A DNA stretch of 37,035 nucleotides from assembly GCA_903946925.1 (NCBI GenBank), contig CAJAXK010000395.1, positions 1-37,035 on the forward strand, read 5' to 3'. How positions within the stretch are numbered: the stretch's first letter is position 1; every line of letters starts with the position of its first letter. A program made the translations under genes and the position numbers. The DNA is from an uncultured Bacteroidales bacterium (lineage in GTDB: Bacteria > Bacteroidota > Bacteroidia > Bacteroidales > UBA4417). The notes beneath the pieces are model-generated. The model was not told the origin of the DNA, made no database searches, and saw nothing but the letters and a program-made list of their open reading frames with translations. Shown here piece after piece: positions 720-34,734 of the stretch.

Positions 720-803
720 TGTTGGATGTTTGATGTGCGATGTCGGATGTTTGATGTGGAATGTCGGAAGTAATCGCACATTGCACATCCCACATCCCAC
801 ATT
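720..803. repeat. Heptamer array with inverted halves between dinB and dnaE
   Basis: Twelve 7-base words follow each other in perfect register from 720 to 803. The first seven fit TGTNNGA (720, 727, 734, 741, 748, 755, 762); after one transition word (769) the last four are of the reverse-complement type NCACATY (776, 783, 790, 797). The array starts six bases after the dinB stop and ends three bases before the dnaE start codon. The two halves can pair into a long imperfect hairpin in the dinB-dnaE transcript. Confidence 0.85.
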
Positions 804-806
804 AAA

Positions 807-3749
807 ATGTACCTCAACTGCCACTCCTTTTACAGCCTCCGTTACGGCACTTTTCCGGTTGAAAAACTGGCAGAATTGGCCGTAGCTAATGGTATTGCTA
901 CGCTTGCACTTACCGATATCAACAACAGCATGGGCATGGTTGATTTTGTGAAAGCCTGCAACAAAAATGGGGTAAAACCTGTGGCCGGTATCGAGTTTCG
1001 CGATGGGAACGAATTGTTGTATATATGTATAGCCCGCAACAACGAAGGTTTCATGGAACTGAACGAATTCCTGAGCCATCACAATATCAACAAAATCCCT
1101 TTGCCTGCCGAAGCCCCTGAATTCAACCAAAGCATTGTGATTTACCCTTTCGGGAAGAAATTGCAAAACCGATTACGGGAAAATGAGTTCATCGGAATAA
1201 GAAGCACCGATCTGAACCTTTTGCTGTCGTCAGAATACCGCCATAAGCAACATAAATTGCTGGCATTGTGCCCTGTAACTTTCGATAGCGAGCAGGGTTA
1301 TGAACTGCACCGCAACCTTCGCGCCATTGATAACAATACCTTGCTGAGCATGTTGGTGCCTGCACAGGTGGCCGCTCCCGACGAATTTCTTATGACGCCT
1401 ACCGAACTCGAAAAACTGTTTGAATATTACCCGCAGATTATTTCCAATACATATAAATTACTTGCCGACTGCAGTATCCATTTCGATTTCAGCAATGTAA
1501 AAAATAAGAAGCTGTTCTCGGCCAGCGCCTACGACGACCGCTTGTTGCTCGAAAAATTGGCGTTCGATGGGCTTGTTTACCGCTATGGCAAAAATAATAA
1601 GGAAGCGAAACAGCGCATAAAACACGAACTCGAAATTATTGACAAACTTGGGTTTTCGTCGTATTTCCTCATTACCTGGGATATTATCCGCTACACGATG
1701 AGCCGTGGTTTTTACCACGTGGGCCGTGGAAGTGGTGCCAACAGCATAGTGGCTTATTGCCTGCGGATCACGGATGTGGATCCCATTGAACTGAACCTCT
1801 ATTTCGAACGTTTCCTCAACCCCAGAAGGAGCAGTCCGCCCGATTTTGATATCGACTTTTCGTGGAAAGACCGCGACGAAGTATTCGACTATATTTTTAA
1901 ACGCTACGGGCATAAACATACTGCTTTGCTTGGCGCGACATCTACGTTTAAAGGGAAATCAACTTTACGCGAATTAGGTAAAGTTTACGGCTTGCCAAAA
2001 GAGGAAATTGATATTTTGATCGAAGAACCAAATAACCCACTTAACAACAACGATATAGCGAAACATATCGTAAAGCTTGCTGTGCGTATGACCGATTTTC
2101 CAAATATCCGCAGCATCCACGCCGGCGGTGTGCTGATTTCGGAAGAACCGCTTACGGCCTACACAGCCATCGATATGCCTCCAAAGGCTTTCCCAACCAC
2201 GCAATGGGATATGTACGTGGCCGAAGACCTACGGTACGAAAAGCTTGATATTTTGAGCCAACGCGGCATAGGGCATATTCAGGAAGCCGTGGATATTATC
2301 AAACAAAACAGGGGTATAAACATTGATATCCATCGTGTTGCAGATTTTAAAAAAGATGAAAAAATAAAACGGCAACTAAAGTCAGCCGAAACCATTGGGT
2401 GTTTTTATATCGAAAGCCCAGCCATGCGCGGTTTGCTGAAAAAGCTTAAATGCGATAATTACCTTACATTGGTTGCAGCAAGCAGCATCATCCGGCCCGG
2501 TGTTGCCCGTTCGGGGATGATGAAGGAATATATCTGGCGGTTCCATAACCCCGATAAGTTCAAATACCTGCATCCCATAATGGAACAGCAACTTGGCGAA
2601 ACGTATGGCGTAATGGTTTACCAGGAAGACGTGCTCAAAATTTGTCATCATTTTGCTGGCCTCGACCTGGCCGATGCCGATGTGCTGCGCCGTGCCATGA
2701 GCGGGAAATACCGTTCGCGGATCGAATTCCAGAAAATTGTGGACAAGTATTTTGAAAGTTGTTATGCGCAAGGGCATTCGGAGGAGATTACCAAAGAAGT
2801 TTGGCGGCAGATCGAGTCGTTTGCCGGATATTCATTCTCAAAAGCCCATTCGGCCTCGTTTGCAGTGGAAAGTTACCAAAGCCTTTACCTCAAATCCTAC
2901 TTCCCACTTGAGTTTATGACTGCCGTGCTAAATAATTTCGGTGGTTTTTATCAGGCCTGGGTGTATATAAATGAAGCTAAGCGTTGTGGTGCAAGTATCG
3001 AATTGCCGTGCATAAACCGAAGCCACAGCACTTCCACCATCATCGGAAGCACTATATGGCTTGGCTTTGTTTATATCGCAAACCTCGAAAGCAACATTGT
3101 AAATGCCATTGTTGACGAGCGTGTGCGCAATGGCGTTTTTGCAAACCTGGCCGATTTTGTCAGCCGTGTGCCAATCACGCTCGAACAGGCCATATTGCTT
3201 ATCAGGCTCAATGCATTGCGGTTTACCGGTGTAAGCAAGCAACAGTTGTTGTGGGAAGTCCACCTTATGTTGCGCAAATCCGCACCGCCGCCCACCGATG
3301 GTTCCCTGTTTGCCACACCTGTAAGGCAATTTGTAATGCCGGTGCTCGACCATTCCGTTGTTGACGATGCTTTTGACGAAATAGAATTGCTGGGTTTTCC
3401 GGTAACAATGGGTTATTTCGATCTTTTGCAGACCAATTTCCGGGGCGAGCTTCGTGCCCACGAAATTGCATCGCATGTTGGCGAAACCGTCAGGATGCTT
3501 GGTTCGTTGGTTACCATAAAATATGTGCGCACCATCAGGAACGAGATTATGCACTTTGGAACTTTTTTCGATGTGGATGGCGAGTTTTTTGATACTGTGC
3601 ATTTTCCACAATCGGCCAAACTATACCCATTTAAAGGAAAGGGCGTTTACCTGATGAAAGGAAGGATAGTTGAGGAATTTGGTTTCCCCAGTATTGAAGT
3701 GGAAAAAATGGCGAAGCTTCCGTTGGTGAAGGATAGGAGGTATTTGTAG
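807..3749 (+). CDS. Short DNA polymerase III alpha-type (C-family) polymerase, translesion DnaE class
   Basis: 980 residues, against about 1160 for E. coli DnaE; the C-terminal clamp-loader-binding part is missing. N-terminal PHP domain (1 to about 190) is degraded: the expected HxH reads NCH in YLNCHSFYSL (residues 2-11), and the later TDH reads TDI, so metal binding and proofreading are unlikely. The polymerase core is intact: GRGSGANS at 306-313, catalytic aspartates in PDFDIDF (D346 and D348) and a third candidate D481 in EKLDILS. KAHSASFAVESYQSLYLKSY and the following GFYQ region resemble the DnaE2/ImuC type. An OB-fold-like region ends the protein. Position directly after a Y-family polymerase supports a role in mutagenic repair and not the main replicase. 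The ATG at 807 is the first in the frame and follows a heptamer array. Main alternative: a second housekeeping DnaE; length argues against it. Confidence 0.9.
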   Translation: MYLNCHSFYSLRYGTFPVEKLAELAVANGIATLALTDINNSMGMVDFVKACNKNGVKPVAGIEFRDGNELLYICIARNNEGFMELNEFLSHHNINKIPLPAEAPEFNQSIVIYPFGKKLQNRLRENEFIGIRSTDLNLLLSSEYRHKQHKLLALCPVTFDSEQGYELHRNLRAIDNNTLLSMLVPAQVAAPDEFLMTPTELEKLFEYYPQIISNTYKLLADCSIHFDFSNVKNKKLFSASAYDDRLLLEKLAFDGLVYRYGKNNKEAKQRIKHELEIIDKLGFSSYFLITWDIIRYTMSRGFYHVGRGSGANSIVAYCLRITDVDPIELNLYFERFLNPRRSSPPDFDIDFSWKDRDEVFDYIFKRYGHKHTALLGATSTFKGKSTLRELGKVYGLPKEEIDILIEEPNNPLNNNDIAKHIVKLAVRMTDFPNIRSIHAGGVLISEEPLTAYTAIDMPPKAFPTTQWDMYVAEDLRYEKLDILSQRGIGHIQEAVDIIKQNRGINIDIHRVADFKKDEKIKRQLKSAETIGCFYIESPAMRGLLKKLKCDNYLTLVAASSIIRPGVARSGMMKEYIWRFHNPDKFKYLHPIMEQQLGETYGVMVYQEDVLKICHHFAGLDLADADVLRRAMSGKYRSRIEFQKIVDKYFESCYAQGHSEEITKEVWRQIESFAGYSFSKAHSASFAVESYQSLYLKSYFPLEFMTAVLNNFGGFYQAWVYINEAKRCGASIELPCINRSHSTSTIIGSTIWLGFVYIANLESNIVNAIVDERVRNGVFANLADFVSRVPITLEQAILLIRLNALRFTGVSKQQLLWEVHLMLRKSAPPPTDGSLFATPVRQFVMPVLDHSVVDDAFDEIELLGFPVTMGYFDLLQTNFRGELRAHEIASHVGETVRMLGSLVTIKYVRTIRNEIMHFGTFFDVDGEFFDTVHFPQSAKLYPFKGKGVYLMKGRIVEEFGFPSIEVEKMAKLPLVKDRRYL

Positions 3750-3752
3750 GAA

Positions 3753-3780
3753 GGGATTGGGGTTTAGGGGTTGGGGGTTA
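3753..3780 (+). repeat. G-rich heptamer array, potential G-quadruplex
   Basis: Four G-rich 7-base words in register start four bases after the dnaE stop. G-runs lie at 3753-3755, 3759-3762, 3767-3770 and 3773-3777 with loops of 3, 4 and 2 bases, which fits a canonical G-quadruplex on the plus strand. It sits between the converging ends of dnaE and the toxin gene, so it could slow or end transcription from either side. Confidence 0.7.
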
Positions 3781-3814
3781 GGACCATAGGCACCTGATTA
3801 TGTGCGAATTGTTA

Positions 3815-4386: not shown

Positions 4387-4398
4387 ACTTTTTTTTTG

Positions 4399-4406: not shown

Positions 4407-4743
4407 ATATATAAGTATAAACTGTATGTATGATTACGGTAATTGTCGCACCAATTGGAACTAACTTGGCGTAAAACAAGTGCAACCCCTCAAATGTATC
4501 GCTTCATATCCTGTTATTTATTTTAGTTTTGTGAAAATTGTAGGTTCTGGAGGGTTGAGTAATATGGTTAAAATTTCAGAGTTTAGGCATCTCTCTCTCT
4601 TTTCAAGTAGTGGGGAAGGGGGTGAGGTCTTTGAGGTGATAAACTCAGAAAATAAAAAACGAGCTAACCTAAATCATCTTATAGTAAGACAAGTGTAAAA
4701 TGTCATTTGTAATAGCTTCTTTATCAGTAATTTATTTTTAGTT

Positions 4744-4813
4744 TGATGAAATAGCCATGATTGGAATAAATAACCAACCGAAGATGATATAATAATCAAT
4801 CTGGCGAACCTTT
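4744..4813 (+). repeat. Dispersed repeat, copy A (decayed coding remnant)
   Basis: The segment aligns without gaps for about 48 bases with 36929-36976 (37 of 48 identical by hand count) and more loosely on to about 4813. Both copies share ATGAAAT-A/T-GCCATG and then ACCAACCGAAxATGATAT. Read in the frame DEIAM, this copy encodes DEIAMIGINNQPKMI followed by two stops, against EIAMVKFYHQPKMILWRIPS in the right-hand copy. So it looks like a broken piece of a short gene present more than once in the genome. Confidence 0.6.
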
Positions 4814-4966
4814 AGCTCACGAATACCTATAAAAAATTAGCTATGCATGAGTAATTCCATGCGACCCGTAAAAAAACAAATAATAACGCATGAAAGTTTA
4901 AAAAGGCTTGAGGCTTCCAACAAACTAACATTGCCCATTAAATCAACTGCCGAGCCTATTTATTTA

Positions 4967-4974: not shown

Positions 4975-5039
4975 ACTTGCATTTAGAATCTATTTATTGA
5001 ATCCTGTTCTTGAAAATAATTTGCAATTCAAAAAGCATT

Positions 5040-6566
5040 ATGAATAAAACACTCCTTACAATTACTGCAATTGTTTTAATGTATTTCAATCTTTATGCAC
5101 AAACCACGATTCCCGGTGGAATGGTAAGCGGAACATGGACACATGCCGATTCGCCATACAACATAATGGGTCCCATTATGATTCCCGACGGTTCAACACT
5201 TACCATTGAACCCGGGGCAGTCGTAAAATTTCAGGGCACATATAAACTGTATGTATTAGGGCAACTACTTGCTATAGGCAATTCGAGGGATTCCATAACT
5301 TTTACTGCGTCCGATACCGAAAATGGATGGTATGGAATACGTTTTGATAACACACCTGAATCAAACGACACCTCCAGATTAATCAACTGCAAACTGCTGT
5401 ATGGTAAAGCCTCGGGCACGGCTCCTGACAATGCTGGCGGTGCATTGTACTTTTACAAGTTTTCCAAAGCAATAATCTCTAACTGCCGGATTTCCAATTG
5501 TGCTACCGATTTTTTGGGCGGTGCAATTTTTTGCAATTATAGCAGCCCAATTATTCAAAACAATACTATTTCGAATAATACATCTTATCTTGGTGGTGGA
5601 ATTTCCTGTTATAACAGTGATAGCAGCCAAATTATTTCGAACAATATCATTTCAAACAATTCTGCTTTTTCTGGCGGCGGGATTTATTTTAATGGCGACG
5701 TGACAATTAGGAATAACTTCATTTCGAACAATTCAGCTACATATGGTGGTGGGATTTCTTGCGACAACAGCCTTAACTACACAAATATTTCAAATAACAT
5801 CTTCTCGAATAACTCCGCTTCTTATGGGGGCGGACTATACTGTACTGCCAACGGCAGCCTCATTATTACAAATACCACAATGGCAAATAACCAAGCAGAG
5901 TATGGAGGTGCGGTTTATTTCGATAATTATTATCCAACTTTGCGTAATACAATCTTGTATGGAAATACTGCCAGCATGAGTGGGGCGCAGGTATTCTTAC
6001 TGAATGAAAACTGCGACCCTGATTTTTATTATTGCGATGTGCAGGGAGGAACAAGTGCCTTTGGCTTCGGTTCTGGTTATTTTTATACAGGAATATATCA
6101 GAACAATATAGATACAATTCCGGCTTTTTTGGCCGAATCCGCAGGAAGTGGCACCGCATACAACGGATTAGCTGCCGATTGGTCAATGCAGTCCGGTTCG
6201 CCTTGCATTAATGCTGGAGACCCTGACGGTTCTTATCCTGCAACAGATTTAGCTGGCTATCCCCGCGTATTTGATACCACCATTGATATCGGCGCGTATG
6301 AATTTCAAGGGTATGTAAGCATTAATCCAGTCCATAAACAGGAAGCCCTAATCCTATATCCAAATCCTGTGAGCAATTACCTCGTTGTCCAAAATCAGCA
6401 AAATTCAACGGTGCAAATTATAAATACCAAGGGACAAATTATTAAAACTATCCAAAACGACTTGCCAAGAAAAACAATTTATTTGGGGGATTTATCCAGC
6501 GGTGTTTATATGCTTAAAGCCATTACAGGCAATGAAGTTACTGTGAAGAGGTTTATAAAACTTTAG
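5040..6566 (+). CDS. Secreted right-handed beta-helix protein with T9SS type A sorting domain
   Basis: 508 residues from the ATG at 5040; an upstream in-frame ATG at 5010 would add ten polar residues before the signal peptide. Residues 1-21 form a signal peptide (KTLLTITAIVLMYFNLYAQ, cleavage after AQ likely). The middle, about residues 130-310, holds seven coils of 24-27 residues, each ending in NNSAxYGGG(I/L), the pattern of parallel beta-helix (pectin-lyase-like) proteins with asparagine ladders. The last 75 residues are a T9SS type A domain: YPNPVSNYLVV, a central SGVYMLKA, and the ending VKRFIKL. Known meaning: export by Sec, then across the outer membrane by the type IX machine with removal of the tail. 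A surface or extracellular adhesin or polysaccharide-binding role is inference; no catalytic site is visible. Confidence 0.88.
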   Translation: MNKTLLTITAIVLMYFNLYAQTTIPGGMVSGTWTHADSPYNIMGPIMIPDGSTLTIEPGAVVKFQGTYKLYVLGQLLAIGNSRDSITFTASDTENGWYGIRFDNTPESNDTSRLINCKLLYGKASGTAPDNAGGALYFYKFSKAIISNCRISNCATDFLGGAIFCNYSSPIIQNNTISNNTSYLGGGISCYNSDSSQIISNNIISNNSAFSGGGIYFNGDVTIRNNFISNNSATYGGGISCDNSLNYTNISNNIFSNNSASYGGGLYCTANGSLIITNTTMANNQAEYGGAVYFDNYYPTLRNTILYGNTASMSGAQVFLLNENCDPDFYYCDVQGGTSAFGFGSGYFYTGIYQNNIDTIPAFLAESAGSGTAYNGLAADWSMQSGSPCINAGDPDGSYPATDLAGYPRVFDTTIDIGAYEFQGYVSINPVHKQEALILYPNPVSNYLVVQNQQNSTVQIINTKGQIIKTIQNDLPRKTIYLGDLSSGVYMLKAITGNEVTVKRFIKL

Positions 6567-6770
6567 GCGCCGTTTGCAAAGTACGGACTGCACCGGCCTT
6601 CAGCCTTCGCGATGAATATTTTAATTTTTGTTCTACAAAAATGATTGTTGTGTCCAGTCCGAAAATTTTTTTTTGCCAATACGGTACTAAATCGCTAACT
6701 TCCACAAAGTTTATAGTGCTGATTAATAACACTCTGTGTCCTCTGTGCCTCCGTGTTTTTTTTAGGGTTT
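6567..6770. repeat. Probable degenerate intergenic repeat element, with a 9-base-period tail
   Basis: Directly after the beta-helix gene, CGGACTG (6584-6590) and its inverted copy CAGTCCG (6655-6661) frame an AT-rich core. At 6732-6758 follows a tract of period 9, based on CTCTGTGNC, whose complement (CACAGAGG-type words) is a motif I have seen between genes of many unrelated environmental bacteria. No protein is supported. The combination looks like the remains of a non-coding mobile or palindromic element. Confidence 0.5.
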
Positions 6771-6803
6771 TCGGAGTGGGCTCAAGTTTGTAAATAAAAA
6801 ATC

Positions 6804-6839
6804 TTTGCCTCATAAAAAGTATTACTTTAGTGAGGCAAA
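6804..6839 (+). promoter_or_regulatory. Inverted repeat over the rhomboid promoter region
   Basis: TTTGCCTCA (6804-6812) and TGAGGCAAA (6831-6839) are perfect inverted copies with an 18-base spacer, ending nine bases before the rhomboid ATG. The spacer contains TACTTTAG (6823-6830), one mismatch from the Bacteroidota -7 motif. This arrangement would suit an operator, or a hairpin in the leader of the mRNA that covers the ribosome site. Confidence 0.5.
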
Positions 6840-11213: not shown

Positions 11214-11283
11214 TTTTATTTCGAAACGGCAAATGTCCGAAAATTATAACAAATAGTAAGAATACTTTTTAGGCAACTATTCA

Positions 11284-11332
11284 GGGTTTGGCTTTATGGG
11301 GTTAGGTTTTAGGGTTTGGGTGTTAGGGTTTA
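11284..11332 (+). repeat. G-rich heptamer array
   Basis: Seven 7-base words in register, consensus GGGKTTA, telomere-like in look. It resembles the arrays at 3753 and 31219 in wording as well as period. G-runs are interrupted, so a stable quadruplex is less likely than at those two sites. Confidence 0.7.
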
Positions 11333-11383
11333 TCATGAAATGTGATATTATGGATCAAATCAAGCATTATTTGAATGACAAAA

Positions 11384-11431
11384 GCCCAACAGCCTAACCG
11401 CCTAGCAGCCCAACCGAATAACCGACTAACC
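11384..11431 (+). repeat. Octamer array
   Basis: Six 8-base words in register, consensus GCCTAACC with variants such as GACTAACC. The period changes from 7 in the array 50 bases upstream to 8 here. Confidence 0.65.
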
Positions 11432-11600
11432 GCCTTCATCAAACATTAGATTTGTTTTTACTTGACTTGTGCAGGGCCAATAGTTGCCTTCTTAGCAACC
11501 GTGTACCCTTTTTAAGGATTAAAATGAGTAGTCAGCCATTGATAGGGTTGATTTTATGTTTTATTAAGAGGGCTTAAACCCCCACTGCTTATAATTTCAA

Positions 11601-11685: not shown

Positions 11686-14600
11686 ATGTATAGCAAAAAG
11701 GTAAGCCTTGTAGTATTCTTGTTTTTTGTTGCCGCAATTTTTAAAGCGAATGCTCAGGTGCAACCCTCTGGTTTTTCGTCTGATACATCAAAATTTATTA
11801 GCGAACTTACTACCCGTTTTCAGCAGGTTGGCGAAATTAATGAAGCTGAGGCAAAATTGCTGTTATCCTCGTTTACATATCAATGGGAATCAAAACTTTT
11901 AACATACCCCCAAAAGCTACAAGCTCAATCCGTTTGCATCGCATTAAGTGAGCAGAAACTTCAGGTTGCCCCCTACTATCTTTTGTATTTCAAAACCTTG
12001 ACCATTTTGGTGAAACAAAGTGCCAGCCCATCGGCTTTTGATTTGTTCCACAAAGGGGTAATGTATTGTATTGAAGGTAAAAACCCTTCGCGTACCCTAC
12101 TCAAATACTTGACGCAGACTGACTTGATTGTTAGCAAGAATGATTTGATGTTCTCAAATACCGAAGCCTGGCATGCACGGAACGGCAGTTATACTTTTGC
12201 TTTTGATACCGTTCCTTTTTTTAATTTCAAATCAATAGACCTCGCCTGTGTGGTTCGAAACGATAGCGCATGCATTTATGAAACAAAAGGCAAATTTTAC
12301 CCATTGACCCAAATGTGGTACGGAAACGGAGGCAAGGTTTATTGGGAAAGGGCAGGGTTGGCCCGCGATGTGGTTTATGCTAAACTATTTGATTATAAAA
12401 TAAATACACGTTTAATATCCTATACTGCCGATTCGGTTTTGTTTTATCATGGCGGATATTTCAAAAAATTCCTGCCTGGTAAACTTGAGGACAAGGCCAT
12501 GGTTGATATAACTGCCGAAAGTGCAACCTTTCCCAAGTTTACAATGAAAAAAGGCGACCAAATTTACATCAACTTATTTAAGGATGTTGAATTTTTTGGG
12601 GGCTTTAACTTACAAGGTTCGAGGGTAATTGGAACACCCGCTGATGATGGTTTTTCGCGCATAGAAATTAAACGCAACAATATTCCTTTTATCAGCCTTA
12701 AATCGGCCGAGTTTGCAATCAGGCCCGACCGTTTTGTATCATCCCGCGCCTCGGTATTGATATTTATCGAGAACGACTCTATTTTTCATCCTTCCGTGCA
12801 AGTTAGGTATAATTTATCAGCCAACGAGCTTGTTATGAGTAGGGGAGATGAAGGGTTGGGGCAAAGCCCGTTTTTTAATTCGTACCATCACCTCGATATG
12901 TACAACGAGGCAATTTACTGGAAACTGAATGAGGAAACCATGAGCCTTGAGGATTTGAAAGGTATCCGCACAAAAAGCGAGGCTACTTTCGAATCTTCCG
13001 ATTATTTTTCGGCATATCGCTTCGATAAGATGCAAGGCATTGATGACGTAAATCCTGCAATGCTTGTTTCTGCCTATGTGCGCAAGCACAGAACCGATAA
13101 GTTTTATGCCGAAGATTATGCCACATGGGCAAAAAAACCTTTGGAACAAATTGTCGTTCAGCTCATTAAACTTGCTAATGCAGGTTTTTTGAATTACGAA
13201 ATCGACCAGCGCTTTGCCACGGTGAGGCCTCGCTTAAACGAATTTTTGGCAGCCCGATCTGGTGTTAAAGATAGTGATGTAATATTGTTTAATTCTTTGG
13301 TCGAAAAGGGATCAAATGCCCAACTCGATTTGAAAAACTTTAGGTTAACAATCGAAGGTGTTAGCAAGGTGATGCTCAGCGATTCGCAGTATGTTTATGT
13401 TGCGCCACGCGATGGGAAAGTGATAATCAACAAAAACCGGGATTTTTCGTTTAAAGGCCGTGTACATGCCGGTTTATTCGATTTTATAGCTAATGAATGT
13501 ACATTCCAGTACGATAAATTTTCGCTCAGTATCCCCAACATTGATTCGGCTATGATGATAGCACCCGCTTGGAGTGTTGATGCCAATGGATTCCGCGACT
13601 TTGTGAGGGTTAAAAACGTGCTGGCCAATATGAATGGCGAATTGTTTATTGATTCGCCCGAAAGCAAATCGGGCCGAAAAATGTTGCACCATTACCCTCT
13701 TCTTATTAGCAAGGACACAAGTTATGTTTACTTCGACCGCAAGGATATTGTTAATGGTGCCTACAAAAAGAAAGACTTCTATTTTCAGGTGAATCCATTT
13801 ACTATGGATAGTATAAACTCTTTGCCTCCCGGTGATTTAAAATTTGAAGGCACCTTGATTTCAGCGGGAATATTCCCCGATTTAAACGAAACTATCCGGG
13901 TTCAAAAGGATTATTCCTTGGGGTTCAGTAAGGTAGTTGCTAGTCCTGGTTTGCCTATTTATGGTGGAAAAGGAACTTATAGCGATACAATTAGGTTGAG
14001 CAACAGGGGCTTAAGAGGTTCAGGAAAATTGAATTTCCTGAGTTCTGTTACTGAGGCAAATGATTTTCTGTTTACACCCGATTCAACATCGGCAAAGGTT
14101 AAAAATTATGAATTGGCCAAAGTTGTCGGCGAGTTCGAGTTTCCTGATGCCAATGTAAAAGATGCCTCAATAAAGTGGTTTCCAGGTAAAGATGTAATGA
14201 CAGTCCAGAATTCGAAAAATGACTCAATCAGCATGTTTGGCAACAAGGCTAAATTGAACGGTGCGCTCACGGTTACACCAACCGGGTTAAAAGGAAATGG
14301 AAACCTCTCGTTCGAAAACGCGCAAGTTGACTCAAAACTATATAATTTCAAAAACGAATCGTTTACATCCGATACTTCCGATTTTAAATTGCTCACAGAT
14401 GACCGTTCCAGGGAAGCACTCCGTGTTCATGTATTCAAAGCTTCTATTGATTTTGCCTCTCGCCAGGGGCACTTTATTGCCACAGGAAAAGGCGCACTCA
14501 TGGAGTTCCCGGTAATACAGTACAATTGTGTTGTTAACGAATTCGATTGGTTGATGGATAAAAAGCAGTTGCAACTTATTAACAAAGCCGATTTTACCCG

Positions 14601-16188
14601 CGAAAAATACTATCAGTTGAAACCCGAGGAGCTTATTACCTATAACCATGGTAAGGAAATCTACACTTCTACCGATCCAAAACAAGATTCATTGAGCTTT
14701 TTTGCTTTGCACGCCATATACGATTTGGATTCCAATTTCCTCGAAGTTGATGATGCACGTATTATCAAAGTGGCTGATGCGGCTATTTTCCCTTTTAATG
14801 GCAAGCTTGCGGTTGGGAAAAATGGAATGATAAAAGAGTTGAAGCAAGCTGAAATTTTGGCAAATAAAACCAATTTATACCATAAGTTTTACAATTCAAA
14901 TGTAAACATAGCATCGCGCAAACGATACACAGCCAAAGGTTTATACGATTATACCCCTTCCGATGGTGAGGTGACAACCCTCGAAATGAACAATATTGCT
15001 ATAAACAGCCAAGGCGAAACGTTTGCCAGTACCAAAATCAGCGATTCGATGAATTTTATGATTAACAGGTATTTTCGTTTTCTGGGAAAAATGGAGGTAA
15101 ATGCCGGCACAAAACGTATCAAGTTCGAAGGTGGATATGGTTTTGTTCACGATTGCAGTGCGTTGAAACACGAATGGGTTGAAATATTTGCAGAAATTGA
15201 TCCAAAAAATGTCATGATCCCCGTACCCGAAAAACCGGAAAATACGGGTAATGGGAAATTACGGGCTTCGATTTTTTATTCGTTGACAGAGAACACAATT
15301 AAACCTGGTTTCTTTTCAAAAGTCGAAAATGTTACCGACCCGGATATTTTTTCTGCCAGGGGTTTTGTTGCTTACCAGCCACAATGGGCTGAATACCGGA
15401 TTGCAGACAGCAGCAAACTCCGAAACCCACAACTAACCGGTAATATGCTGGGGTTTAATACCAACAGGTGTATGTTGTCGGGTGAAGGACAAATTGATCT
15501 TGCAACTAATTTGGGCCAATTGAAGATGCGGTCGGCTGGTGCTGTAAACTATTTTTCAATTGTTGATTCAACATCCTGTAATGTATTAAGTGCTTTCGAT
15601 TTTTTCTTTAGCGATGATGCAATGAAGATATTTGCAGATGCGCTTAACGGCTCTGAGTTGAATGGGATTGATGTTTCTGGCCTAAACTATACACGTTCGC
15701 TGCGCGAATTTGCCGGGCAGGAAGAAGCCGATAAAATACTAACAGAATTAAGCCTTTATGGCCAATACAAGAAATTCCCCGATGTGCTTAACCATACTTT
15801 GGTTTTAACCGAACTACAGTTGAGCTGGAATCAGGATTTAAGGTCGTTTATCAGCAAAGGGCCAATTGGTATCAGCAACCTTGGTAAAAATCCTGTAAAT
15901 AAGCGTGTTAACGGAGTAGTAGAAATTGGAAAGAGACGATCAGGCGATATCCTCAACCTTTATTTTGAACTTTCCGAAAACCAATGGTACTTCTTTACTT
16001 ATTCGAGTGGAACCATGCAGGTGCTTTCTTCCGATAAAACCTTCAACGAAAAACTTACAGGCTTGAAGGAAAGCGATCGGGTGATAAAAGGGGGGAAAGG
16101 CCAACAAAGTTACCAGTTCATAATTGGTACCCCCGAAAAGAAATCTGTTTTCCTGCGAAAGATGAAACAGACAGCGGGAGATGAATAA
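11686..16188 (+). CDS. Very large exported protein of unknown function, beta-rich
   Basis: 1500 residues. Residues 1-24 are a signal peptide (SLVVFLFFVAAIFKANAQ, cleavage after AQ). The first 170 residues are mostly helical; the rest looks like a long run of beta strands. Around residues 1010-1035, stretches such as YDLDSNFLEVDDARIIKVAD and AAIFPFNGKL recall the strand pattern of OstA/LptA-type beta-jelly-roll proteins that handle lipids in the periplasm; this is a resemblance by eye only. There is no lipobox, no T9SS tail and no clear outer-membrane barrel end, so a periplasmic place is most likely. The gene stands just before plsY (phospholipid synthesis), with 172 bases between, which would suit an envelope role. 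Codon use looks like that of the neighbouring core genes, so it is probably an old chromosomal gene. Confidence 0.8.
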   Translation: MYSKKVSLVVFLFFVAAIFKANAQVQPSGFSSDTSKFISELTTRFQQVGEINEAEAKLLLSSFTYQWESKLLTYPQKLQAQSVCIALSEQKLQVAPYYLLYFKTLTILVKQSASPSAFDLFHKGVMYCIEGKNPSRTLLKYLTQTDLIVSKNDLMFSNTEAWHARNGSYTFAFDTVPFFNFKSIDLACVVRNDSACIYETKGKFYPLTQMWYGNGGKVYWERAGLARDVVYAKLFDYKINTRLISYTADSVLFYHGGYFKKFLPGKLEDKAMVDITAESATFPKFTMKKGDQIYINLFKDVEFFGGFNLQGSRVIGTPADDGFSRIEIKRNNIPFISLKSAEFAIRPDRFVSSRASVLIFIENDSIFHPSVQVRYNLSANELVMSRGDEGLGQSPFFNSYHHLDMYNEAIYWKLNEETMSLEDLKGIRTKSEATFESSDYFSAYRFDKMQGIDDVNPAMLVSAYVRKHRTDKFYAEDYATWAKKPLEQIVVQLIKLANAGFLNYEIDQRFATVRPRLNEFLAARSGVKDSDVILFNSLVEKGSNAQLDLKNFRLTIEGVSKVMLSDSQYVYVAPRDGKVIINKNRDFSFKGRVHAGLFDFIANECTFQYDKFSLSIPNIDSAMMIAPAWSVDANGFRDFVRVKNVLANMNGELFIDSPESKSGRKMLHHYPLLISKDTSYVYFDRKDIVNGAYKKKDFYFQVNPFTMDSINSLPPGDLKFEGTLISAGIFPDLNETIRVQKDYSLGFSKVVASPGLPIYGGKGTYSDTIRLSNRGLRGSGKLNFLSSVTEANDFLFTPDSTSAKVKNYELAKVVGEFEFPDANVKDASIKWFPGKDVMTVQNSKNDSISMFGNKAKLNGALTVTPTGLKGNGNLSFENAQVDSKLYNFKNESFTSDTSDFKLLTDDRSREALRVHVFKASIDFASRQGHFIATGKGALMEFPVIQYNCVVNEFDWLMDKKQLQLINKADFTREKYYQLKPEELITYNHGKEIYTSTDPKQDSLSFFALHAIYDLDSNFLEVDDARIIKVADAAIFPFNGKLAVGKNGMIKELKQAEILANKTNLYHKFYNSNVNIASRKRYTAKGLYDYTPSDGEVTTLEMNNIAINSQGETFASTKISDSMNFMINRYFRFLGKMEVNAGTKRIKFEGGYGFVHDCSALKHEWVEIFAEIDPKNVMIPVPEKPENTGNGKLRASIFYSLTENTIKPGFFSKVENVTDPDIFSARGFVAYQPQWAEYRIADSSKLRNPQLTGNMLGFNTNRCMLSGEGQIDLATNLGQLKMRSAGAVNYFSIVDSTSCNVLSAFDFFFSDDAMKIFADALNGSELNGIDVSGLNYTRSLREFAGQEEADKILTELSLYGQYKKFPDVLNHTLVLTELQLSWNQDLRSFISKGPIGISNLGKNPVNKRVNGVVEIGKRRSGDILNLYFELSENQWYFFTYSSGTMQVLSSDKTFNEKLTGLKESDRVIKGGKGQQSYQFIIGTPEKKSVFLRKMKQTAGDE

Positions 16189-21536: not shown

Positions 21537-21541
21537 ACTAC

Positions 21542-26502: not shown

Positions 26503-26600
26503 TGTAGTCCAATTTCACACAAATATTTAATTTTCTTCTAATTTGCCTTTTCAAAACAAAGACGTCGAGGATTGGTAAAAACCATTCGAAGGGTTAATTA

Positions 26601-26704
26601 CCACATCCCCATATCTCCAAATTCCCAAATTCTCAAATTCTCTCATCCCCAAATCTCCACATTTTCAAATTATCGCATTACCACATTACTGCATTATCGC
26701 ATTA
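26601..26704. repeat. Octamer array running into the end of uvrA
   Basis: Thirteen 8-base words stand in perfect register from 26601, of the kinds CCAAATTC and TCGCATTA; the word drifts gradually from the first kind to the second along the array. The uvrA stop codon (26694-26696 on the minus strand) and its last two or three codons lie inside the array. Confidence 0.8.
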
Positions 26705-29561
26705 CCTCTTTTAAATATTCAGCCGTATAGCTTTTTTTGTTTTTTATAAGTTCTTCAGGGGTTCCTTCGGCAATAATATAACCACCGCGTCCACCTCCTT
26801 CGGGGCCAAGGTCAATAATATAGTCGGCAATCTTTATTACTTCGAGGTTATGTTCTATTACCAAAACCGAATTTCCCCGGTCAACAAGTTTGTTTAAAAC
26901 ATGAAGAAGAATATTTACATCCTCAAAATGCAAGCCGGTAGTAGGTTCGTCTAATATATATAGCGTATGGCCGGTATCGCGTTTCGAAAGTTCTGTTGCA
27001 AGTTTTACACGCTGGGCTTCGCCGCCCGAAAGGGTTGTTGAACGCTGCCCAAGTGTTATATATCCAAGCCCCACTTGATTTAACGTGTTGATTTTTTGAA
27101 TAATGGAAGGTATATTGGCAAAAAAATCAACTGCATGTTCAATTGTCATGTTGAGCACATCGGTAATGGATTTACCCTTGTAACGAACTTCGAGGGTTTC
27201 GCGGTTGTAGCGTTTGCCATCACAAAATTCGCAAGGGACGTGGACATCGGGCAAGAAATTCATTTCAATAACCCGTATTCCGGCACCCTGGCAAGTTTCG
27301 CAACGCCCACCTTTTACATTGAACGAAAAACGCCCTGGTTTATAACCTCTAATTTTTGATTCGGGCAAAGCTGAGAAAAGTTTGCGTATTTCGTCGAAAA
27401 CCCCAGTATAAGTAGCTGGGTTTGATCGCGGTGTGCGGCCAATAGGCGATTGGTCAATTTCAATTACTTTATCAATATTTTCAAGCCCTTCGATACTTTG
27501 GTAGGGTAGGGGCTTTTGTTCCGAACGGTAAAAATGCTTGCTCAATATTGGGTAAAGTGTTTCGTAAATCAAACTCGATTTACCACTTCCCGAAACACCT
27601 GTAATGCATGTAAAAACACCTAATGGAAGTTTTAAATCCACATTTTTCAGGTTGTTACCTGTTGCACCGTTTAGGGTAAGAAATCCTTTCTCAAGCTCTC
27701 TCCTTTTTGATGGTATTGCTATACTTTTCTTTCCCGAAAGGTATTGGCAAGTAATGCTTTTACAGTCTTTTAGCGATTCGGGCGAGCCTTGACCAACAAT
27801 AAGTCCACCATGAGTTCCGGCACCTGGTCCCATATCAATAACATGGTCGGCGGCAAGAATCATATCCTGGTCGTGTTCCACTACAATTACTGAATTTCCG
27901 GTATCGCGTAGGTTTTTAAGCGAAGCTATCAACCTGTGGTTGTCGCGTTGGTGTAGGCCAATGCTGGGTTCATCTAAAATATACAGTACGCCTACCAATT
28001 GCGATCCTATTTGTGTAGCAAGCCTAATCCGCTGTGATTCGCCACCCGAAAGGCTTCCCGATGTGCGGTTAAGTGAAAGATAATCAAGTCCTACATTTAA
28101 CAGGAAAGTCAAGCGGCTTTGTATCTCGCGTATTATTTCGTGGGCAATCTGTTTTTGCCGTTCTTCCAAATGTTGTTCAAGATTGCTAAACCATTCAGTT
28201 AGGTTTATCAAGTCCATATTTGAAAGTTCGGCAATGTTTTTCCCATTCAATTTGTAGAACAACGATTCCTTTTTCAACCTTGTGCCGTTGCAATCGGGGC
28301 AAACCACCGAATTCATAAACCCTTCGGCCCAGCGTTTCAACCCTTCGGGGTTTCCAGCCTCGTTATGGTTTAAAATATGTTGCACAATCCCTTCAAAGTT
28401 AAGCGAATAGGAAGATGTAACCCCTAAATATTCGTTTTTTACTTTTATTACTTCTTCCGAACCATATAAAATGGTCTCGATAGCTTCATCAGGAACATCC
28501 GAAAGTGGGGTATCGAGGGTAAAATGATATTTATGGGAAATTGCTTCGAGTTGCCTGAAAATCCAGGTAGGTTTGTACTCGCCAACCGGTGTAATCCCAC
28601 CTTTTCGGATGCTCTTGCTTGTATCGGGAATAATTTTGGCAAGGTCAATTTCAGAAATGTACCCTAATCCTTTGCAGCGTGGGCAATATCCATAAGGCGA
28701 ATTGTACGAAAAACTGTTTGGCTCGGGTTCATCGTAAGCAATGCCGGTTTCGGGATCCATGAGCAAGCGGCTGTAAAACCTCGCTTCTTTTGATGTTGAT
28801 TCCATGGCCATCAAAGCACCTTTGCCCTGACGCAGAGCTGTTTGGATGGAGGCAGTCAATCGGGTTAATGATTTCTCGTTAACTTTTATGGTATCAATAA
28901 CGGCCTCAATATCATGGATTTTGTACCTATCAACCTGCATCCCGAATGTAATTTCGCTTACTTCGCCATCAATACGGACTTTAAGGAATCCTTGTTTGCG
29001 GATTTGTTCAAATAATTCCCTGTAATGCCCTTTTCGCCCACGAACCAAGGGTGCAAGTATGTATATAGTTTTCTCGGAATAGTTTTCCAGTATCAGGTCG
29101 ATAATCTGGTTATCTGTGTAACGGATCATTTTCTGACCAGAAACAAAGGAGTAAGCATCGGCAGCGCGAGCATAAAGCAGGCGGAGGAAATCATAAATTT
29201 CGGTAATTGTGCCAACCGTTGAGCGTGGGTTTCGGTTGGTGGTCTTTTGTTCGATCGAAATTACCGGGCTTAAACCGGTAATCTTGTCAACATCAGGCCT
29301 TTCAATATCGCCCATAAACTGCCGTGCATACGCCGAAAAGGTTTCCATATAGCGGCGTTGCCCTTCGGCGTAAATTGTGTCGAAGGCAAGGGAAGATTTT
29401 CCGCTTCCGCTCAATCCGGTTATGACAACCAATTTATCGCGCGGAATTACTACATCAATGTTTTTGAGATTATGTACCCGGGCACCGTAAACTTCCAGGA
29501 ATTCCTGATGCGAAGTAATGACTTCCTCTTGTTCAATGTATTCGATACTATCCTGTTCCAT
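26694..29561 (-). CDS. uvrA: Excinuclease ABC subunit A
   Basis: 955 residues from the ATG at 29559-29561; a TTG start 12 codons earlier would touch the upstream stop and was rejected. Two ABC modules: the first Walker A is [11 protein letters not shown] (about 48-58), the second [11 protein letters not shown] (about 645-655), with signatures [16 protein letters not shown] and [15 protein letters not shown]. Zinc sites: CPRCKG and CPDCNG in the first half, CETCQG and CEFCDG in the second. UvrA finds bulky DNA lesions and loads UvrB for nucleotide excision repair. It has an N-terminal extension of about 20 acidic residues ([12 protein letters not shown]) before the core, as other Bacteroidota copies may have. 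It starts 38 bases after the lytic transglycosylase gene and is probably co-transcribed. Bacteroidota often have two UvrA copies, so this may be one of a pair. Confidence 0.96.
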
Positions 29562-30669: not shown

Positions 30670-31209
30670 TCAGAAAACTAATGCATCCCTCAATAATGGT
30701 GCCACTTTATCTTTTTCTGACAAAAGAGGGTCGGTAACTCCCCAGTCGATATTCAATTCAGGGTCGTTCCAGCGGATGCTGCCTTCGGATGCCTTGTTAT
30801 ACATTGCCGAACATTTATATGTAAAAATGGTGTCGTCTTCAAGTGTAACAAAGCCATGTGCAAAGCCAGCCGGGATCCAGCAAATCCATTTGTTTTCGCC
30901 CGTGAGCTCCATTGAAACCCATTTACCAAAAGTAGGTGAGTTGCGCCGGATATCAACGGCTATATCCAAGACTGCGCCCCTGATAACGCGGATAAGCTTG
31001 CCTTGCGCAAAAGGAGGCAATTGAAAGTGCAAACCCCTCAGCACATTTTTTTGCGACCTCGATTCATTATCCTGCAAAAATGGCTCGGTTATGCCAAAAG
31101 CTGCAAATTTGTCCACATGGAATGATTCGAAGAAATATCCTCGGTCGTCGCCGAATACATCCGGCTTAATAATTTTTACATCAGGTATTGAGGTGGGGAT
31201 AAGTTCCAT
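30670..31209 (-). CDS. rfbC: dTDP-4-dehydrorhamnose 3,5-epimerase
   Basis: 179 residues from the ATG at 31207-31209; the longer frame to 31272 would translate the heptamer array and was rejected. Cupin fold signs: DVFGDDRGYFFES, NVLRGLHFQLPP with the catalytic base H61, LDIAVDIRRNSPTFG, WIPAGFAHGF (111-120) and the tyrosine Y131 in FTYKCSAMY. The enzyme turns dTDP-4-keto-6-deoxyglucose into the L-rhamnose precursor, used for surface polysaccharides. The other genes of the rhamnose pathway (rfbA, B, D) are not in this window, so the gene is separated from its usual cluster. Confidence 0.93.
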   Translation of the reverse strand: MELIPTSIPDVKIIKPDVFGDDRGYFFESFHVDKFAAFGITEPFLQDNESRSQKNVLRGLHFQLPPFAQGKLIRVIRGAVLDIAVDIRRNSPTFGKWVSMELTGENKWICWIPAGFAHGFVTLEDDTIFTYKCSAMYNKASEGSIRWNDPELNIDWGVTDPLLSEKDKVAPLLRDALVF

Positions 31210-31218
31210 GTGTGAAAA

Positions 31219-31337
31219 GGGGTTGGGGGTTAGGGTTTTGGGGTTTGGGGGTGGTAAAAGGTAAAAGGTCAAAGGTAAAAGGTCAAAAGGAAAAGGTCAA
31301 AGGGAAAAGGTCAAAGGGAAAAGTAAAAGGGAAAAGG
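31219..31337. repeat. Composite heptamer array (G4-type then purine-type) in front of rfbC
   Basis: Seventeen 7-base words stand in register. The first five are of the kind GGGGTTG with G-runs at 31219-31222, 31225-31229, 31233-31235, 31240-31243 and 31247-31251, a canonical G-quadruplex on the plus strand. From 31254 on the words become GTAAAAG, GTCAAAG and GGAAAAG, and GTCAAAG-type words alternate with GGAAAAG-type words to give a 14-base unit (31267, 31281, 31295, 31309). It ends ten bases before the rfbC start codon, so the rfbC leader would be the C/T-rich complement. Confidence 0.85.
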
Positions 31338-31390
31338 TTTACTTTTCTGGTGAAATCAAATTTCTTGAGCTTTCAATATTCCTTAGTATC

Positions 31391-32782: not shown

Positions 32783-32806
32783 AGAATAGAATTTTAAGTT
32801 CTGATG

Positions 32807-32814
32807 CAAAATTA
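32807..32814 (-). promoter_or_regulatory. Candidate -7 box for lpdA
   Basis: TAATTTTG on the minus strand fits TAnnTTTG exactly, 24 bases before the ATG. No -33 TTG seen at the usual distance. Confidence 0.5.
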
Positions 32815-32943
32815 CCAATTTTACTCGGATTTTGCCTTATTTCTTTTGATTAATCAACAAAAACGATGTTTCGGCAACAACGTTACCATGTTTTTACTAA
32901 AATTTTTTAACACCAAGTTTTTGAGTTCATCATCATAAATAGA

Positions 32944-32968
32944 AACGGCTCACAATCTGCGAGCCGTT
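32944..32968 (-). terminator. Terminator-like hairpin after the lipoprotein gene
   Basis: AACGGCTC (32944-32951), loop of nine, GAGCCGTT (32961-32968), 25 bases after the lipoprotein stop on the minus strand. The stem is strong but the T-run that follows is interrupted. Confidence 0.6.
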
Positions 32969-32993
32969 CTATGTTTTTACAATTGGTATGCTG

Positions 32994-33710
32994 TTATTTT
33001 TTTTCTGGTTCGGCAGTGGCCGGAGCTTCTTCAGGCAATTGTTCCATGCTTGGAACAGTTTGATCCATAAAGCTGTAGCCTTCTGGAACCTTGAATTTCT
33101 CGGCTGGTACTTTGGTATCAAAATCAACTTTATCAGCAATTATCTGCATTTCGGCAAAAGAAACTTTCAATGGAATGTTTTTGTAATGCACGCCGGTTAT
33201 CCGTTTATCTGGATTTGTGCTGTCGGGCGACATGGAATATTTAGAGCCAGCCATCCCAGCAACGGTTTCTTCGCCTTCTTCCTTGAAATTGACTTTGGCT
33301 TTTAGTTTATCGCTTAGGGAGCCAATGTTCATTAGTTCGAACATTTCGGGTTCAAGAGTTGACTTGTATGCACTTTTGGTAGCTTTATCCTGTCCATTTT
33401 CAATATTTTCGGTCTCATAGTGGTACATTGTGAAGCCATCAGTAATATCAAAAGTATGTTGTTTCATTTCAACACCATTCATGTTTCCTTCTACGATGGT
33501 TTCACGCATGGTCTTTTTCCCAAAATCGTCGAAATACAAAGTTTGGGTAACTTTTACTCCCATCATTTCCATTGGTTTATATACCACTGTTCCACTCTTT
33601 TCGCCAAAGGGCTGTTCGGCAGTACCTCCACTAAATCCAGAACCACCCGATTTGCACGACATCAACAAAGAAAGGGCAACAAATGGGACTAAGACAAAAA
33701 ATCTTTTCAT
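32994..33710 (-). CDS. Lipoprotein of unknown function
   Basis: 238 residues. Signal peptide of a lipoprotein: KRFFVLVPFVALSLLMSC with C19 as the lipid-bearing cysteine (lipobox LLMSC), followed by a short Gly/Ser linker (KSGGSGFSGG). The mature part looks like beta strands: repeated patterns such as VKVTQTLYFDDFGKKTMRET and MKQHTFDITDGFTMYHY, as in outer-membrane-associated lipid- or substrate-binding proteins of the DUF4412 kind, although I cannot confirm the family. A proline/glutamate-rich tail closes it (EEAPATAEPEKK). It stands alone between a hairpin and a long heptamer array. Location: periplasmic side of the inner or outer membrane. Confidence 0.82.
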   Translation of the reverse strand: MKRFFVLVPFVALSLLMSCKSGGSGFSGGTAEQPFGEKSGTVVYKPMEMMGVKVTQTLYFDDFGKKTMRETIVEGNMNGVEMKQHTFDITDGFTMYHYETENIENGQDKATKSAYKSTLEPEMFELMNIGSLSDKLKAKVNFKEEGEETVAGMAGSKYSMSPDSTNPDKRITGVHYKNIPLKVSFAEMQIIADKVDFDTKVPAEKFKVPEGYSFMDQTVPSMEQLPEEAPATAEPEKK

Positions 33711-33741
33711 TTTTTAAATTATTGGTTGTTATTTTTTTTTG

Positions 33742-33749
33742 CAAAAGTA
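33742..33749 (-). promoter_or_regulatory. Candidate -7 box for the lipoprotein gene
   Basis: TACTTTTG on the minus strand fits TAnnTTTG exactly, 31 bases before the ATG. The heptamer array starts 36 bases further upstream. Confidence 0.5.
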
Positions 33750-33784
33750 GTAAAAGTTAATGAGATAGGTAGATGAGTTAAAAT

Positions 33785-34043
33785 GGTTATTGGTTAATGG
33801 TTATAAGTTATTGGTTATTGGCATTTTGTAATTTGTAACTCGTAATTGGTTATCGGTAATTGGTTAATCAGCATTCGTGAAGTGTCATTGGTTATTGGAA
33901 ATTGGTTAATCGTCATTCGTGAATAGTTATTGGTTATTGGAAATTGGTTAATGGTCATTAGTGAATTGTTATAGGTTATTGGAAATTGGTTAATCGTCAT
34001 TCGTTATTCGCCATTCGTAAATGGTTATTGGGAATTGGATTAA
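33785..34043. repeat. Long heptamer array with 42-base higher-order unit
   Basis: Thirty-seven 7-base words stand in perfect register, consensus NGTNATT (common words GGTTATT, GGTTAAT, CGTCATT). From 33848 on, a six-word (42-base) unit appears; copies at 33848, 33890, 33932 and 33974 are clearly alike, an earlier one at 33806 is more worn. A 61-codon frame on the minus strand (33815-34000) arises only because 42 is a multiple of 3; it gives 14-residue repeats (MTINQFPITN...) and is not taken as a gene. It fills most of the gap between the lipoprotein and DUF1648 genes. Confidence 0.9.
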
Positions 34044-34066
34044 AGATTACAAATTGCCGGTTCTTA

Positions 34067-34579
34067 TTATTTTGGAGTAGCCTTTTTTGTGAATGAAAAG
34101 GCCAATATTATAGGCAGTGTAACAGGAATTGCAATCGCAAGCGGAAGAAACCAAAATGGCAAATTACTGTTTTCGTTTGTATTACATATTTGCCATTCGA
34201 TCGCAAAGAATAAAACTACTACTAACAACTTGATAATCCGCATCAAACGTGTGGCTTTTGAATAAAGTTGAAGCGCATTGTCCTGAGTAACTTTGGTAGG
34301 ATAATTAAAAATTTGAGGATATTTATTCATGACTGTAAGCCCGATATACAAAACCAAAGCGAAGGATGGTAAAATAAAAATTGTGCCTTTGCTTCCCCAA
34401 TCATCTATTTCACCTTTTAGGTTGTAATGTGTTGGAATAGTTTCTGGAAGGATTTGATAAGCAAAAATTGGAAGCAACCAAATTGCCAAAACGAAAAGAA
34501 ATGCAGCTATTTCAAGAATAAGATCAAATTTTGTTGAAACAGGTTTTAGTTTAGGACGATTTTCGGAAACGGTTTTCAT
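34067..34579 (-). CDS. DUF1648-domain membrane protein
   Basis: 170 residues with four membrane segments. The DUF1648 signature is clear: after the first helix comes LPETIPTHYNLKGEIDDWGS (about 45-64), with the loop pattern P-x-H-x-x-G-x-D-x-W. Such domains occur in SdpI-type immunity proteins and related small membrane proteins of uncertain job. A second segment pair ends in a short basic tail. The gene is framed by heptamer arrays on both sides that carry the same word family in opposite orientation. Confidence 0.85.
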   Translation of the reverse strand: MKTVSENRPKLKPVSTKFDLILEIAAFLFVLAIWLLPIFAYQILPETIPTHYNLKGEIDDWGSKGTIFILPSFALVLYIGLTVMNKYPQIFNYPTKVTQDNALQLYSKATRLMRIIKLLVVVLFFAIEWQICNTNENSNLPFWFLPLAIAIPVTLPIILAFSFTKKATPK

Positions 34580-34650
34580 AAAACGATTGGCTATGATGCT
34601 TTTGATGTTTTTTTAATTTGTTAATTTACTGCTCTACTATTCCAAATCCC

Positions 34651-34734
34651 CTATTTTCTATTTTTCTATTTTCTATTTCCCATTCTCTATTAACCATTTT
34701 CTATTAACCATTCACCAATAACCATCAACCAATC
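34651..34734. repeat. Heptamer array at the end of the Lrp-type gene
   Basis: Twelve 7-base words in register, first CTATTTT and TCTATTT, later ACCATTC, ACCAATA and ACCATCA. Read on the minus strand the later words are the GGTTATT/GGTTAAT family of the array at 33785, in opposite orientation. The stop and last codons of the Lrp-type gene (34725-34734) lie inside the array. Confidence 0.8.

Follow-up and report, generated by a model that had tools for sequence, protein, structure and literature searches.

Strand polarity at gene edges in seven- and eight-base repeat arrays of a Bacteroidales genus

The short tandemly repeated repetitive (STRR) heptamers of filamentous cyanobacteria, which date from Mazel in 1990, are said to stand in tandem and to comprise several words. 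We describe here arrays with a fixed step of 7 or 8 bases in an uncultured Bacteroidales bacterium and its congeners. The starting point was a stretch of 37,035 nucleotides (contig CAJAXK010000395.1 of assembly GCA_903946925.1; hereafter the window), in which an earlier note, made from the sequence alone, had read eight such arrays. The strongest and most informative result, absent from that note, is a strand polarity: close to genes, the strand that leads away from the gene is the G-rich one.

Heptamer arrays span several phyla, and neither their step nor their orientation has a settled cause in the literature surveyed. In its available text, MacGregor 2015 (PMC4679880) describes TAACTGA repeats in Beggiatoaceae, Cyanobacteria and five Bacteroidetes, with arrays of TAACTGA and other heptamers in Gramella, Aequorivita (long arrays) and Elizabethkingia, and reports that indels between two Cyanothece strains are mostly steps of 7. 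The accessible part of Rehm et al. 2015 (PMC4692102) concerns the GGGAATC and GGGGA(C/T)T heptamer repeats of Xanthomonas and Nostoc, including convergent pairs of GGGNATC-type repeats in Xanthomonas, and mentions three heptamers in Calothrix. Among the long simple sequence repeats (LSSRs) of Mrazek 2007, as summarized in portions of PMC4679880 and PMC4692102, heptamers were the commonest class, and slippage together with polymerase contact was proposed. A term search of the available part of PMC7015867 returned no mention of heptamers. The earlier view that such arrays are not well described in Bacteroidota therefore stands only in part, since heptamer arrays had already been published for Bacteroidetes (PMC4679880, in the text available).

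Strand polarity at gene edges

The genome of the window (G000; 6.17 Mb in 498 contigs, the window being contig C395) was analyzed together with 15 congeners, giving a genus set of 16 genomes with one genome per species. Genes were defined as long open reading frames (ORFs) called by script, without a gene finder. The G000 sample amounted to 833 kb, and the polarity survey covered eight genomes and 1.73 Mb, with 222 arrays in 153 gaps. Counts of outward and inward arrays omit those with an absolute skew of 0.1 or less; arms shorter than 14 bp or with a skew of 0.25 or less were likewise omitted, which leaves 16 of the 153 gaps without an arm. Loci L045, L046, L047, L048 and L049 are the same records as G005, G008, G015, G007 and G002, respectively, and do not count as independent of these genomes.

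Within 50 bp of genes, the outgoing strand was G-rich rather than C-rich in a ratio of 69:10 at stops and 37:4 at starts. This held for convergent stops (18:1), tandem stops (51:9), divergent starts (5:0) and tandem starts (32:4), and the nature of the edge, stop or start, makes no difference. At stops, outward arrays outnumbered inward ones 58:6 within 20 bp, 11:4 between 20 and 50 bp and 9:7 between 50 and 100 bp, while at starts the ratio was 56:4 within 100 bp. The polarity thus reaches about 50 bp past stops and about 150 bp ahead of starts, and is then gone. Across the 222 arrays, the skew declines along the gap (Spearman -0.61), with 40 G-rich and 2 C-rich arrays in the left fifth and 4 and 41 in the right fifth. 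By edge, the G:C counts were 31:1 at left stops, 14:2 at left starts, 0:14 at right starts and 3:31 at right stops. The G strand contains 31.5% G and 6.3% C, with A about equal to T, and arms at stop edges begin a median of 2.5 bp past the ORF (104 arms).

The polarity persisted when genes were restricted to ORFs of at least 200 aa (51:7 at stops and 29:1 at starts, within 50 bp) and when ORFs of at least 150 aa were used with overlapping arrays removed (32:8 and 28:2). It was also present in the stride-sampled G000 contigs alone (19:2 and 9:1) and, with G000 removed, in the seven remaining genomes (20:6 and 15:2). Outside the genus (75 loci, 1.49 Mb), a weaker trend was seen within 50 bp (25:11, p 0.03). 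Gaps with two arms follow the same order: 35 run from a G-rich to a C-rich arm and 1 the other way, another six switch repeatedly, and the stride-sampled loci give 6:0 for G-then-C. As a consequence of the polarity, the mRNA is C-poor right after the stop, and the leader or promoter region is G-poor before the start. The limited reach from gene edges implicates transcripts.

Period, vocabulary and growth of the arrays

The eight arrays are present in the window where they had been read, with the sequence as given. The fixed step is borne out by autocorrelation, the check that the earlier note had suggested. Gaps of the window show an excess at lag 7 (z 6.7) and lag 8 (z 4.6), as well as at lags 14 (z 6.5) and 21 (z 4.9), all remaining lags from 2 to 30 being at or below 3.7. 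A stride sample of G000 contigs that excludes the window (408,919 bp, including 352,580 bp of ORFs and 189 gaps of 48,254 bp) gave z 6.9 at lag 7, 8.1 at lag 8 and 4.7 at lag 14, with at most 3.3 at the other lags from 2 to 35. In an array census of this sample at a score threshold of 12.5, gaps held 19 arrays of period 7, 11 of period 8 and at most 4 of any other period; ORFs held 2 and 4 of periods 7 and 8, against 0.6 and 0.4 in a Markov resample. Tandem 7-bp units thus lie mainly in non-coding DNA, as in the STRR and heptameric LSSR class. The families of period 7 and 8 account for 35 of the 51 gap arrays, which extrapolates to roughly 500 arrays genome-wide. Outside the genus, gaps contained 23 arrays of period 7, compared with 4 for ORFs and 1 for a resample, so the feature is wider than the genus.

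Taken individually, six of the eight listed arrays are significant, their level not being reached in 60 resamples, whereas 3753-3780 and 11284-11332 are not. The chance expectation in 37 kb is 0.15 at lag 7 and 0.7 at any lag from 5 to 12 for the former, and 0.75 at the stated period and 5.6 at any lag for the latter; as 11280-11331, the latter passes with period 14 and a score of 16.9. Periods other than 7 and 8 are also present: G000 has 11 and 23, G001 a block of 11 and G003 a period of 10. Examples are the gap arrays of period 11, 12 or 23 at L038:15162-17047 (G000) and L200:73-426 (G001) (TGGTCATTCGG; GCTATTGAATG), and a period-10 array of about 150 bp, CAACCTTTGA, that adjoins a stop codon at L197:6800-6953 (G003).

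The words are not particular to each site, as had been supposed. A repeated word was found in 31 of the 36 stride-sampled arms, and 21 of these 31 had it in common with another locus, rotations and the opposite strand being treated as equal; when the letters of the units were permuted, the mean was 6.5 and the maximum 14 in 200 trials. Several words each recurring at many sites is again what characterizes the STRR and heptameric LSSR class. The described drift from one word to another is in part a switch of strand from G-rich to C-rich words, as at 719-803. Frequent word classes in the G000 sample are ATTGGTT, ATTGCGG, AATGGTT, ATTTCGG and ATGTNGG, and the period-8 grammar ATT-NN-C-NN is frequent as well. 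The vocabulary depends on the species: G003 prefers AAAAGTG, AAGAGTG and AAGTCGG, and GGTTATTGGTTATTGG, with up to one mismatch allowed, was counted 251 times in G000, 124 in G002, 45 in G001 and 30 in G014, with no occurrence in 4 of the 15 congeners. Species of the genus also differ widely in array load. Over all contigs, words were shared by 360 of 4392 arm pairs within genomes and 201 of 7095 between genomes, and by 87 of the 93 G000 arms; the within-genome figures are inflated because part of the contigs was not chosen at random.

Change of the arrays in whole units, part of the earlier interpretation, is supported. When arrays 56 bp or longer were matched to themselves at lags from 12 upward, the best lag was an integer multiple of the unit length in 62 of 67 cases for period 7 and 27 of 32 for period 8 (89 of 99 together), and a multi-unit block beat the single unit by more than 0.1 in 25 of the 99. 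Comparison of 29 gaps between G000 and G002 showed an array only in G000 in 8, in both in 4, only in G002 in 1 and in neither in 16. In the 8 G000-only gaps (6 of them of the 7/8 families), the G002 gap holds a seed-like match of 9-12 of 12 to the array words; the mean is 10.6. Other array-free gaps average 8.7, and 2.2% of them attain the median of the own-gap matches. Such matches were seen by eye in G002 for L028:4970 and for window positions 31272 and 33710. The self-match in whole units and the near matches in G002 together fit growth in place by in-register duplication.

Among ten congeners inspected by eye, nine have period-7 words in the gap between dinB and dnaE, and the gap of G001 is 39 bp and lacks them. 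Most retain words of the GATGT type downstream of dinB and of the ACATC type upstream of dnaE (G010 has only the ACATC type), and the interior varies. A few gaps inspected visually gave the impression that words may be added inward from the gene edges. At the end of uvrA, ATTTTCAAATTATCGC is common to G000 and G002 and CCATTTT-type words occur in G008, while no array words were seen by eye in G005, G007 and G013.

Origin of the arrays and of their orientation

From the observed growth register, shared words, seed-like matches and polarity, we infer slippage as the agent and transcription as the cause of the polarity. The account that we consider rather probable is growth of seeds in place by unit duplication, with a filter or bias on orientation that is linked to transcription. 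A short pre-existing seed would become an array by duplication of whole units, through replication slippage or unequal exchange of neighboring copies, and the step would stay constant because each later duplication takes the neighboring copies as its register. Words would change as point mutations are copied along in blocks. Units of 7-8 bases may be favored at birth, likely owing to some feature of the replication machinery, in line with the proposal of Mrazek 2007; in the available text of PMC4060949, mismatch repair handles loops of 1-3 bp and declines beyond, so units of 7-8 would be spared. Arrays would survive mainly in gaps, and near genes they would persist, or form, mostly in one orientation, the filter or bias being tied to transcription rather than to the words. 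Whole-unit slippage or unequal exchange accounts for the step, the drift, the block repeats and the seeds, but not for the orientation. For the latter, Rho loading on the C-rich strand and R-loops on the G-rich strand are the remaining concrete candidates; with leader composition, they make up a short list of testable causes.

Several observations weigh against this account. Arrays more than 150 bp from a stop (ORFs of at least 200 aa) lean the opposite way, with 9 out and 22 in. Array-free gaps in G000, G003 and G001 lack an outward-G skew at stops, so no general compositional rule for 3' ends is visible; G002 has a slight outward-G skew in the first 20 bp (n=47). Strings of three words shared between period-7 arrays number 128, against 43 (standard deviation 12) in word-shuffled arrays, a hint of copying between sites that local slippage does not account for; for period 8 there is no clear excess (4 vs 1.7). 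Seed-like matches are weaker in G009, with a mean of 9.7 against 9.1 (6 gaps), and plain common descent is also expected to leave such matches at orthologous sites. Gaps were compared between species, so that gain or loss of units was not seen directly. Finally, the choice of contigs was mixed, part by stride and part for size or earlier matches (GGTTATT, uvrA, dnaE and others). Background composition was also considered as the full cause of the polarity. It explains start edges in part (C on the outward strand is 0.07-0.15 over the first 40 bp of array-free gaps) and leaves the rule at stop edges unexplained, where G is about equal to C in three of four genomes.

Other readings address the orientation directly. 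Untranslated RNA that runs out of a gene, beyond its stop or upstream from bidirectional promoters, would hybridize best as an outward R-loop if it is G-rich, and slippage of the displaced strand would then bias expansion toward that orientation. We regard this as unlikely, though not far-fetched: the orientation is set by the direction away from the gene, stop-edge arms start almost directly past the ORF and the polarity fades 50-100 bp after stops, but start edges would require frequent divergent antisense transcription, and some words, such as TTGAAAA, are only weakly G-rich. It is likewise unlikely that arrays are selected as Rho-loading sites that terminate untranslated polymerase entry, sense or antisense. 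The entering RNA would start G-poor and C-rich with regularly spaced cytosines, a single cause for outward G at both edges, and the polarity is indeed alike at starts and stops. The composition of the C-rich strand, about 31% C and 6% G, fits such a site, 14 of the 16 genus genomes encode Rho (TIGR00767), and arms have a median length of 54 nt (upper quartile 87), near the 70-80 nt of a Rho site, which the accessible part of PMC6407284 describes as C-rich and G-poor with cytosines 11-13 nt apart. That spacing is 7-8 here, however. A pyrimidine-cytosine (YC) step occurs in 84% of units, compared with 80% when the unit letters are permuted (z about 3), but this excess is small, and the YC share of all C is no different from that in a plain letter shuffle (0.646 vs 0.642). 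Moreover, array-free stop edges carry no antisense C-over-G bias in three of four genomes, so genes manage without such a site. A broader version, in which the arrays guard gene entrances genome-wide, with slippage in steps of 7-8 bases supplying cheap periodic G-poor RNA, selection retaining it at sites of polymerase entry from either side and Rho loading on it, is distinctly unlikely; word identity would then be irrelevant, so that words turn over while place, step and strand stay.

The arrangement of paired arms bears on two further readings. If both 3' ends of a break gained telomere-like G-rich repeats and were then joined, a G-then-C order with differing words would result. The order in two-arm gaps agrees with this, including that in the stride-sampled loci, and the arms mostly carry unrelated words and often abut without a spacer. 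Yet there is no preference away from genes, where, among the 38 arms lying over 100 bp from the edges on both sides, the 5' end of the G strand is nearer its edge in 19 and not in the other 19, direct C-to-G junctions occur too (8 vs 27), and G002 holds seed-like matches. In addition, there is no RVT_1 match in G013 (99% complete) or G004 (97%), both of which bear arrays; RVT_1 is present in 9 of the 16 genus genomes. This speaks equally against a copying enzyme of the reverse-transcriptase kind; a copying enzyme, of no stated kind, had been offered as an explanation for the constant period. We deem addition at broken ends very improbable, and even more so the possibility that the two arms of a pair form an inverted repeat retained for termination or mRNA stabilization. 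A G arm and a C arm share a gap in 35 cases, and some pairs do match (window 719-803, L195 and L236), but similarity to the own arm is 0.373 against 0.374 to foreign arms (41 pairs, permutation p 0.48; 26 pairs of G000 alone, p 0.98), and the own arm is the best in 4 of 41. The arms of a gap thus share no words as a class and are not hairpins; inverted repeats like repetitive extragenic palindromic (REP) sequences or bacterial interspersed mosaic elements (BIME) were rejected as a class, the arms being non-complementary with few exceptions. We give hardly any credence to retention of C-poor words after genes as a supply of stop codons, which contain no C. The frequency of stops is higher for the G strand than for the complementary one (0.0775 vs 0.030; 72 stop-edge arms) but lower than the 0.0963 (standard deviation 0.0054) obtained with permuted unit letters, on which ground this reading was rejected, and start edges would be left unexplained. 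Quadruplexes were rejected as well, with a G-quadruplex (G4) motif in 10 of 204 arms; an orientation rule that holds over many unrelated words in itself makes quadruplexes and hairpins unlikely as its cause.

Arrays of the window and known repeats

The arrays of the window lie mostly in gaps, as the earlier note had claimed for all of them, with the exceptions given below; their neighboring copies are 57-76% alike. Immediately 3' of the dinB stop (712-714), a G-rich arm of GATGTNN words occupies 719-770 on the plus strand, and a C-rich arm of NNACATC words (776-803, minus strand) ends 3 bp short of the dnaE ATG at 807, both with period 7. A short G-rich array of GGGGTTA and GGGATTG (3753-3780, plus strand), weak alone, lies 3 bp past the dnaE stop, and GGGGTTA-type words stand at the equivalent site in G013 and G009 too. 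The G-rich arm of GGGTTTG and GGGGTTA at 11280-11331 (plus strand; period 14 by score, 7 by eye) is 66 bp upstream of the start of a minus-strand class-V aminotransferase gene. At a distance of 47 bp it is joined into a G-to-C pair by the C-rich arm GCCTAACC (11379-11435, minus strand, period 8). The C-rich period-8 array at 26597-26711 (minus strand), with the ATT-NN-C-NN grammar, overlaps the 3' end of uvrA by 18 bp.

A G-rich array of GGGGTTG and GGGTTTT (31218-31252, plus strand) is located at the 5' end of the minus-strand ORF for dTDP-4-dehydrorhamnose 3,5-epimerase. It falls inside this ORF (30670-31272) if translation starts at the TTG at 31272; residue 27 is the first of the Pfam domain, and an ATG in frame is located just beyond the array. 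A second word set of period 7, GGTAAAA and GGTCAAA, follows at 31253-31338 (plus strand), 52 bp from the stop of a minus-strand pyridine-nucleotide oxidoreductase gene, where it points inward. The longest array, of the GGTTATT family (33782-34040, plus strand), contains a higher-order block of 42 bp (6 units) in 3.8 copies; it points outward from the start of the minus-strand gene 32994-33710 and inward at the stop of a DUF1648 gene. The C-rich period-7 array of CTATTTT, CCATTAA and ACCAATA (34651-34734, minus strand) runs into the stop of an Lrp/AsnC gene, the end of the Lrp-type ORF being overlapped by 9 bp at 34662-34733.

The DUF1648 gene lies at 34067-34579; the equivalent gap measures 766 bp in G002 and 721 bp in G005 (L045), and shorter elsewhere, with 72 bp in G015 (L047), 223 bp in G008 and 132 bp in G009 and G013. 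Dispersed repeats were noticed as well. One of them, roughly 150 bp long and bounded by inverted ends of the type GAGTCCRCTCNGA ... TCGGAGTGGACTC, occurs at 6636-6804 of the window, at L028:10134-10568, where it sits inside a period-8 array, and at L028:14676-14970, with many copies in G002. A second dispersed intergenic repeat (ATGATTGGAATAAATAACCAACCGAA... / CCATGGTAAAATTTTATCACCAACCGAAAATGAT) is found at 4436-4895 and 36928-37035 of the window, with many partial copies in G002, G003 and G013. The window also encodes a 1500-aa ORF (11686-16188) with no Pfam match at E 0.001 and, at 5010-6566, a beta-helix protein with the C-terminal sorting domain Por_Secre_tail, which is probably secreted.

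The likeness to cyanobacterial heptamer repeats that the earlier note had drawn is upheld: the STRR heptamers are similar tandem heptamers of several words, in another phylum. Like the LSSRs of Mrazek 2007, the present arrays show an excess of 7-mers, and they differ in their imperfect copies, the LSSRs reportedly being closer to perfect. The TAACTGA repeats, as far as the available text of PMC4679880 shows, are likewise intergenic direct repeats of heptamers, mixed in some Bacteroidetes with other heptamers. The present arrays use other words, and no tandem TAACTGA was found in the 833-kb G000 sample or in the window. With the GGGNATC-type repeats (PMC4692102, accessible part) they have the outward G strand in common. 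There, two related quadruplex words are involved; here there are many words, few of the arms carry a G4 motif, period 8 occurs too and paired arms mostly differ in their words. No exact tandem pair of GGGNATC or GGGGA(C/T)T was present in the 833 kb, nor a GGGNATC pair, allowing one mismatch, in the window. A limited literature survey returned no report of a polarity that spans many unrelated words, nor of arms placed head to head whose words differ. The kind of repeat, and the polarity for GGGNATC-type words, had already been published; what the present arrays add is a genome-wide vocabulary and an orientation rule that extends across unrelated words.

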